Shown: one piece after another, positions 30,155-32,251 of the stretch | Position numbering within the stretch: the stretch's first letter is position 1 | Layout of the letters: each line of letters begins with the position of its first letter | NCBI GenBank assembly: GCA_902363375.1 | Contig: CABIZX010000005.1 | Coordinates: forward strand, 186,001 to 250,000 | Direction: 5' to 3' | Source of the DNA: Clostridiaceae bacterium | Lineage (GTDB): Bacteria > Bacillota > Clostridia > Clostridiales > Clostridiaceae | DNA: 64,000 nucleotides | Position numbers and translations under genes: made by a program | The notes under the pieces: model-generated | What the model saw: the letters and a program-made list of their open reading frames with translations, nothing else | Databases searched by the model: none | Told to the model about the DNA's origin: nothing

Positions 30155-30298
30155 ATGTTAACAATTATGTTGGGGGAGTATTTTAATTGGCAACGAAACA
30201 TCGATGGTGAAGAAAAGGATAAAATACTTGATATCTATGATGAAGATGAAATTATGGGTATAGAGGTTGAATATTTATCATGGCAATTTAGCTTGTAA
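30155..30298 (+). CDS. Small acidic protein of 47 residues, unknown
   Basis: This short frame has a strong ribosome binding site, ATAGGGGAGAGTGTTAAA, before its ATG. The peptide begins MLTIMLGEYFNWQ and ends EYLSWQFSL, with a highly acidic centre (DGEEKDKILDIYDEDE). Its net charge and composition differ from random AT-rich frames in this genome, which are Ile/Lys/Asn/Tyr-rich. A bidirectional terminator follows within about 35 bp of the stop, so the unit has ribosome binding site, ORF and terminator. No signal peptide or membrane helix is present. I do not recognise it. Confidence 0.6.
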   Translation: MLTIMLGEYFNWQRNIDGEEKDKILDIYDEDEIMGIEVEYLSWQFSL

Positions 30299-31604: not shown

Positions 31605-31633
31605 TTGACAATTGAACATGTGTTCGCTATCAT
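31605..31633 (+). promoter_or_regulatory. Sigma-A promoter of the 77-residue gene
   Basis: TTGACA (31605-31610) and TATCAT (31628-31633) are spaced by 17 bp. The LexA-type box occupies most of the spacer, so a bound repressor would block polymerase. Confidence 0.7.
31613..31626 (+). promoter_or_regulatory. LexA/DinR (SOS) box
   Basis: The sequence TGAACATGTGTTCG matches the Gram-positive LexA consensus CGAACRNRYGTTYG at 13 of 14 positions, with both GAAC and GTTC half-sites intact. It lies between the -35 and -10 hexamers of the promoter. Confidence 0.75.
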
Positions 31634-31665
31634 ATAAGTATGATAACAAATAGGGGGGTAAAAAG

Positions 31666-31899
31666 ATGAGAAACAAAGATTTGTTTATTGAGTTAAAGTA
31701 TAAGGCAGATGGTCAAGGGCTTGAGGGTATAAATTTTTTAGAAGATGATACAACTATAGGTGGGCAAAAATATATGTTATGTGGTGGAGTTTTAAATAAA
31801 AATGGAGGTAAGCTTTTATTTAAAGCTAGAAATATACAAGAAGCTAATGAGTTTACCAAAAGAAATCCTTTAACTTCAAAGATAGTAGTATGCAGTTAA
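31666..31899 (+). CDS. Small protein under predicted SOS control, unknown
   Basis: The 77-residue soluble protein follows an AGGGGGGTAAAAAG site. It has a beta-strand start (DLFIELKYKADGQG), a central GGQKYMLCGGVLNKNGGKLLFKA part and a helix ARNIQEANEFTKRNPL, ending in IVVCS. The EANEFTKRNPL wording faintly resembles YCII-like small dimeric domains, but that is only a suggestion. The promoter carries a LexA box, so expression should rise after DNA damage. Neighbours (HutG-like gene, purR) give no functional hint. A hairpin terminator makes it a single-gene unit. Confidence 0.7.
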   Translation: MRNKDLFIELKYKADGQGLEGINFLEDDTTIGGQKYMLCGGVLNKNGGKLLFKARNIQEANEFTKRNPLTSKIVVCS

Positions 31900-31914
31900 T
31901 ATATATCATAAAAT

Positions 31915-31972
31915 TAAGAGCTCTCTCAAAATGAAGATTTATCAAATCTTTATTCTGAGGTAGCTCTTTTGA
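31915..31972 (+). terminator. Terminator after the SOS-box gene
   Basis: AAGAGCT and AGCTCTT close a long stem, with an inner AAGATTT/AAATCTT pair, ending in TTTTGATTT. The remaining gap to purR (about 280 bp) contains only a TAATTGTA-TGG-TACAATTA palindrome at 31980-31998. Confidence 0.75.
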
Positions 31973-32251
31973 TTTACCGTAATTGTATGGTACAATTATA
32001 AATATATAACCTTCATGAAGATGATATTAATAGAAATTAAAAGTTTGATTATATACGTTTTAAACTTGGATATCTATTCAAGATCTTAATTTATGATTAA
32101 GTTACATAAGAAGGAATATATTAATATAAAACTTTTTAATATTATTCCATAAAAATATTAGAAAATAATTGTAATGTAGAAGCAAAACATATAGAATAAA
32201 AATGAACGATAAAGCTTAAAATAAAGATAAAATTCGGAAGGATATAGTTAG

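Follow-up and report, generated by a model that had tools for sequence, protein, structure and literature searches.

The small dedicated genes of the bacterial SOS response that are repressed by LexA include those for YneA of Bacillus, SosA of Staphylococcus and SulA of Escherichia coli. YneA and SosA each have a membrane segment, YneA also a LysM domain, while E. coli DinI is an acidic, cytosolic alpha/beta SOS protein of about 80 residues. Here we describe a 77-codon gene in a 64,000-nucleotide stretch of DNA from a Clostridiaceae bacterium (contig CABIZX010000005.1, positions 186,001 to 250,000; referred to below as the window), which has a LexA box within its promoter and encodes a protein distantly related to YciI. 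Judged from the DNA and its relatives, the gene very likely belongs to the SOS regulon of Clostridiaceae under the control of LexA, and it is probably a real, uncharacterised part of the DNA-damage response across most of this bacterial family. The gene resembles those of YneA, SosA and SulA in being small, dedicated and preceded by a LexA box, but the proteins of its family differ from YneA and SosA in lacking a membrane-type segment (none of 131 proteins has a 19-residue hydropathy of at least 1.6) and have no LysM domain among the Pfam matches listed. They share with DinI a small, cytosolic alpha/beta character, although DinI is not among the Pfam matches listed and the charge of the two is opposite.

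LexA targets have been described in clostridia. In C. difficile a GAAC-N4-GTTT/C class of box is found at lexA, recA and uvrB (PMC4234289), and in C. acetobutylicum the targets comprise, in the authors' wording, 'at least' recA, lexA and a DNA-repair radical-SAM gene (PMC3828012). A YneA-like gene lies divergent from lexA in C. thermocellum (PMC8457756), an arrangement unlike that of the gene described here, which is not divergent from lexA in the window or in the loci that we read. A C. difficile lexA mutant forms filaments, and the accessible part of that report does not name the protein responsible (PMC4689574). In searches of the open-access literature, in which subscription journals are mostly not represented, none of the titles and abstracts listed describes a YciI-like protein of Clostridium under SOS control.

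The box in the window, TGAACATGTGTTCG, differs from CGAACRNRYGTTYG by a single mismatch and so agrees with it at 13 of 14 positions, as the initial annotation of this DNA had stated. It lies within the 17-nucleotide (nt) spacer of the promoter, 2 nt from the -35 element and 1 nt from the -10 element (Table 1). The promoter itself, which had been described as a good one, has 11 of 12 consensus matches and ties with one other for the top rank among 36 promoter-like sites in the 3.8 kb scanned. We also find, in agreement with the initial annotation, that no other such box is present in the window: the sole match to CGAACNNNNGTTCG with at most one mismatch is at this site, where 0.09 would be expected in 64 kb, and the sole occurrence of the exact GAACNNNNGTTCG is at the same place, against an expectation of 0.06. 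When the box pattern of the initial annotation is relaxed to three mismatches, 39 sites are seen in the window as compared with 33.9 by chance, and because this is no excess the evidence consists of one good site in the window together with its conservation.

To describe that conservation we read 161 loci, the window and 160 genome loci that had been picked by protein match and not by the box (the 30 best matches, 100 more of those listed, and a further 30). The genome loci come from 153 of 163 matching genomes, with the remaining 10 genomes and several second copies left out, and as they share ancestry the counts that follow are of related, non-independent cases. In each locus the 250 nt that precede the chosen start were scanned for CGAAC-N4-GTTCG, with one point for each of its ten fixed bases. 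A box scoring at least 8 is present at 150 of the 161 loci, and one scoring at least 9 at 112. Among the first 131 loci the score is 10 in 32, 9 in 59, 8 in 29 and 7 or less in 11, and among the later 30 it is 10 in 10, 9 in 11 and 8 in 9. By comparison, 20 of 1,112 control tiles of 250 nt, drawn from these loci at a distance from the gene, score 8 and none scores 9 or 10; simple shuffles of the upstream DNA, a control for the first 131 loci, reach 8 or more in 55 of 2,620 cases, one of these at 9. Box and gene are therefore found together in other Clostridium genomes rather than in the window alone, and the outcome named in the initial annotation as refuting LexA control, a box that is not conserved upstream of orthologues, is not what we observe.

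The position of the box is conserved as well as its sequence. It is flanked directly by a -35 element (at least 5 of 6 positions) and a -10 element (at least 4 of 6) in 141 of the 150 box loci, a layout seen at 335 of 8,050 random positions, and 115 of the box loci have exactly the 2-nt and 1-nt spacing of the window. In the remaining nine a box lies no more than 12 nt downstream of a TATAAT-like element. The loci differ in the number of boxes, with one in 68, two in 81 and three in a single locus, so that 82 of 161 have at least two. The two boxes are 26–30 base pairs apart in 61 of the 81 two-box loci (L085, L097 and L111, for example), one lying inside the promoter and the other close to where transcription would be expected to start; in the window the promoter box stands alone.

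When the upstream DNA of four orthologues (L001–L004) is aligned with the window, no change is seen in the half-sites GAAC and GTTCG or in the TATTGACA before them, and the other upstream DNA drifts. The box is also retained where the genes around it change. Neighbouring genes vary among lineages, and in C. punense, where the perfect palindrome CGAACAATTGTTCG is kept, a transporter-like and a GGDEF-like gene (named by reading) lie beside it and purR does not. A locus whose protein has the same ending as the C. pasteurianum DSM 525 homologue CPAST_c01570 (P0034; the locus is L067) has a box scoring 10, CGAACAGAAGTTCG. The view of the initial annotation that this is a dedicated small protein controlled by LexA is thus upheld by conservation, but the significance it attached to the adjacent purR is not. 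A toxin of a toxin–antitoxin pair is unlikely, since in the window the gene stands alone between a promoter and a terminator of its own, and its neighbours are not constant. With P0034, one relative, as the query, plasmid and phage collections gave no match.

If this is a LexA box it should also be present at recA and lexA, and in relatives of the window organism it is, as the initial annotation had anticipated. Four of six recA copies, one per genome in four genomes, have GAAC-N4-GTTCG just 3' of the -10 element. Full-length recA is present twice in both C. sulfidigenes (G001) and C. punense (G002) (L026 and L031 against L028 and L030), and in each genome only one of the two copies has the box. 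The box is present at 30 of the 31 lexA genes located in 34 loci, typically as AGAACATAAGTTTG, with a score of 8 in 27, 9 in 3, 6 in 1 and 10 in none. The boxes of the YciI-like family are usually nearer to the perfect palindrome than is lexA's own. These better palindromes, and the frequent doubling of the box, suggest from what is known of SOS regulons in general that repression is tighter and that release comes later, the pattern of effectors that harm growth. By eye, no obvious YneA is seen in the divergent position at the 34 Clostridiaceae lexA loci (L164–L192 among them). The divergent gene is a DEAD-box helicase in three of them, also by eye, and in 26 it encodes a small Cys-rich protein of CxxCGKC type, not YneA, which may share lexA's box.

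Sites of the form GAAC-N4-GTTYG number 23 in C. sulfidigenes, 12 of them within open reading frames (ORFs) and 11 intergenic. The intergenic ones include those of recA, lexA, the YciI-like gene, an integrase, Rpn-like genes and a radical-SAM gene, as named from protein starts by reading. The last of these resembles the radical-SAM gene of the C. acetobutylicum LexA regulon, in so far as that source describes it (PMC3828012). Three Rpn/PD-(D/E)XK-like genes of the same genome (L219, L231 and L232, again by reading of starts) are preceded by GAAC-N4-GTTTG boxes.

On its own, the window protein does not match PF03795 and matches no family convincingly in Pfam or NCBIfam; the relation to YciI becomes apparent from its relatives. 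Of 82 members 32 match YCII (PF03795) at E ≤0.1, the best at 1e-4, and the best of four full-length relatives scanned (L056) scores 24.0 bits at a cut-off of 24. Some genomes carry canonical YciI-like paralogues (L084, L107, L124 and L162), all four of which match PF03795, and a profile-profile comparison (hhalign) of the family with these paralogues gives a probability of 99.3 and an E value of 4e-20. The family has the core layout of YciI of Haemophilus influenzae and TftG of Burkholderia and shares their motif KYxxxGG...GGxxxFxAxxxxEA. Unlike them it has a putative SOS promoter, lacks the His-Asp dyad and, in the model of a full-length member (beta-beta-beta-alpha-beta, with a predicted local distance difference test score, pLDDT, of 68), has a loose linker in place of the first YciI helix. 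The dyad motifs F..H..YL and DP occur in five of the first 131 proteins, the four paralogues above and L137, which do not include the window protein; they occur in none of the other 126 members and, by a similar test, in none of the later 30.

Among the first 131 loci the box accompanies 119 of 126 non-canonical members but one of five canonical ones (p 1.3e-4). In three genomes (G149, G153 and G090) it is found at the dyad-less copy and not at the canonical one, and in a fourth (G101) at both. The canonical copy of this last genome, L162, which has both the His and the Asp motifs, is the sole one of the five with a box, scoring 9. We conclude that the protein is related to YciI but has diverged from it, with the beta-sheet and second helix kept and the catalytic His segment and catalytic Asp lost, and that it is soluble, basic (median isoelectric point 9.3 and median net charge +4 in 131 proteins) and about 75–100 residues long. 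Because both catalytic residues are lost, it most likely works by attaching to a partner and not as a catalyst, and the fold of an enzyme would have been re-used under damage control, apparently without its catalytic residues.

The close relatives of the window protein are 24 proteins with 62–97% identity, the named ones all from Clostridium (C. sulfidigenes, C. subterminale and Clostridium sp.), with C. punense as a further source of an orthologue; the most diverged proteins of the loci set have 22% identity to it. The GTDB family of C. sulfidigenes, a near relative of the window organism, is represented by 206 genomes, of which a profile of 25 members matches 157 and a broader profile of 55 members 163. 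In a class-wide sample of 391 genomes 19 match, 12 strongly, all within the C. sulfidigenes family, and seven weakly. Six of the weak matches and a second weak copy in G030 resemble ordinary YciI, with DP present and a box score of 7 or less, and the seventh (L211) is not YciI-like. Among the 120 listed of 162 matches in a large protein set, those with a named source come from Clostridium, Haloimpatiens, Clostridiaceae or Bacillota, and the proteins are named mainly 'hypothetical protein', with 'YCII-related domain' or 'YciI family' in a few cases. The profile thus matches about four in five genomes of the family, and a LexA box is present at nearly all the loci that we read, but the protein mostly goes by 'hypothetical protein'. 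Such a gene offers a single-gene handle on which proteins perform the physiological, non-repair part of the Clostridium SOS response.

The function that we favour, on balance, is that of a tightly LexA-repressed, non-enzymatic binding inhibitor, a checkpoint or growth-restraint factor that would hold up division or replication as a cell-cycle process while repair goes on. From its site between the -35 and -10 elements LexA would block RNA polymerase, as suggested by the geometry and conservation of the site. DNA damage would then free the promoter through the RecA-stimulated self-cleavage of LexA that is established for the SOS response, and a small, soluble, basic protein would be made, perhaps late in that response. 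Without the dyad it would bind its partner and not act on it catalytically. A partner in division or replication is a guess, prompted by how tightly the gene would be controlled, by its standing alone and by the lack of an obvious YneA at the lexA loci. Whether the protein goes as far as serving as the Clostridiaceae SOS checkpoint effector, taking the role of YneA or SulA from the cytosol with a YciI-derived, non-catalytic fold unrelated to either, is more doubtful, and we put this forward tentatively. Several observations weigh against this account. Nothing points directly to division or replication, Foldseek finds no match at E ≤0.001, and the predicted models, which consist of strands and one helix, plus a final strand in that of the full-length member, have moderate confidence, with pLDDT of 66 and 68. 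As regards LexA control, the published target lists for C. difficile (PMC4234289) and C. acetobutylicum (PMC3828012) do not name the gene in the parts available, and 11 of 161 loci have no box, seven of these being non-canonical (L046, L055, L039, L089, L099, L075 and L116). There is no genome-wide enrichment of GAACNNNNGTTC (18 sites against 19 for the reversed control in G001, and 20 against 39 in G002) or of GAACNNNNGTTYG (23 against 18 in C. sulfidigenes, G001). The presence of the gene is weakly associated with that of LexA (odds ratio 3.6, p 0.03), and seven genomes with no detected LexA domain still have it.

The small difference of 23 against 18 sites in C. sulfidigenes would fit a palindrome that had arisen by chance or was neutral, with the gene outside SOS control, as would the finding that 12 of these 23 sites fall within ORFs. 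The frequency of the box at the loci relative to the control tiles, its fixed spacing to the -35 and -10 elements and its retention while neighbourhoods change make that explanation highly improbable. A YciI-type enzyme that clears a toxic small molecule or damaged nucleotide under stress would fit the distant YciI relation, as TftG of the same superfamily is a dehydrochlorinase, but the available text reports that TftG needs the His-Asp dyad (PMC7641849), and its absence from 126 and a further 30 non-canonical members leaves an enzyme improbable. Less easily set aside, although still unlikely, is a nucleic-acid binder that would assist repair at damaged DNA or at RNA. The protein is basic, a ferredoxin-like layout, such as it may have, is frequent among nucleic-acid binding proteins, and the fold searches, which gave generic matches only, include DNA-binding regulators among the weak ones. 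Somewhat more weight may be given to a modulator acting on components of the SOS machinery, even if this too is a minority possibility: RecA filaments, LexA or a polymerase would be bound by this small, cytosolic protein in the manner of E. coli DinI or RecX. The small size, solubility, alpha/beta character, LexA box and wide spread in the family would all suit such a role, and an analogous function needs no match to DinI. However, neither the DinI nor the RecX family is among the Pfam matches listed, and the family is basic where DinI is acidic.

Table 1. Elements of the probably SOS-controlled gene and their positions in the window
Feature	Position	Strand	Basis
-35 element TTGACA	31605..31610	+	sequence and promoter scan; TTGACA also shortly 5' of the box in all 4 orthologues aligned
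LexA (SOS) box TGAACATGTGTTCG	31613..31626	+	pattern match; conserved in relatives
-10 element TATCAT	31628..31633	+	sequence and promoter scan
G-rich ribosome-binding site GGGGGG	31653..31658	+	sequence; ATG 7 nt downstream
ORF, 77 codons, YciI-like small protein of probably SOS-controlled family	31666..31899	+	ATG at 31666; translation, homologues, codon-position differences
Intrinsic terminator hairpin	about 31911..31976	+	-25 kcal/mol, z -5.3

The reading of this ORF as a gene is supported by the pattern of substitution, with differences mainly at third codon positions in the 10 pairs of five orthologues and most strongly so in close pairs; between the window and C. sulfidigenes they number 4, 2 and 21 at the first, second and third positions respectively. 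The gene had been described as ending in its own terminator, and we find there a long hairpin followed by a short U run, with none of 200 shuffles equally stable, although it is absent from the output of a simple terminator scan. Elsewhere in the window, a 47-residue ORF (30155–30298, + strand) has conserved counterparts of 66–70% identity in C. sulfidigenes (L001) and UBA1056 (L002) and matches nothing in Pfam or NCBIfam.
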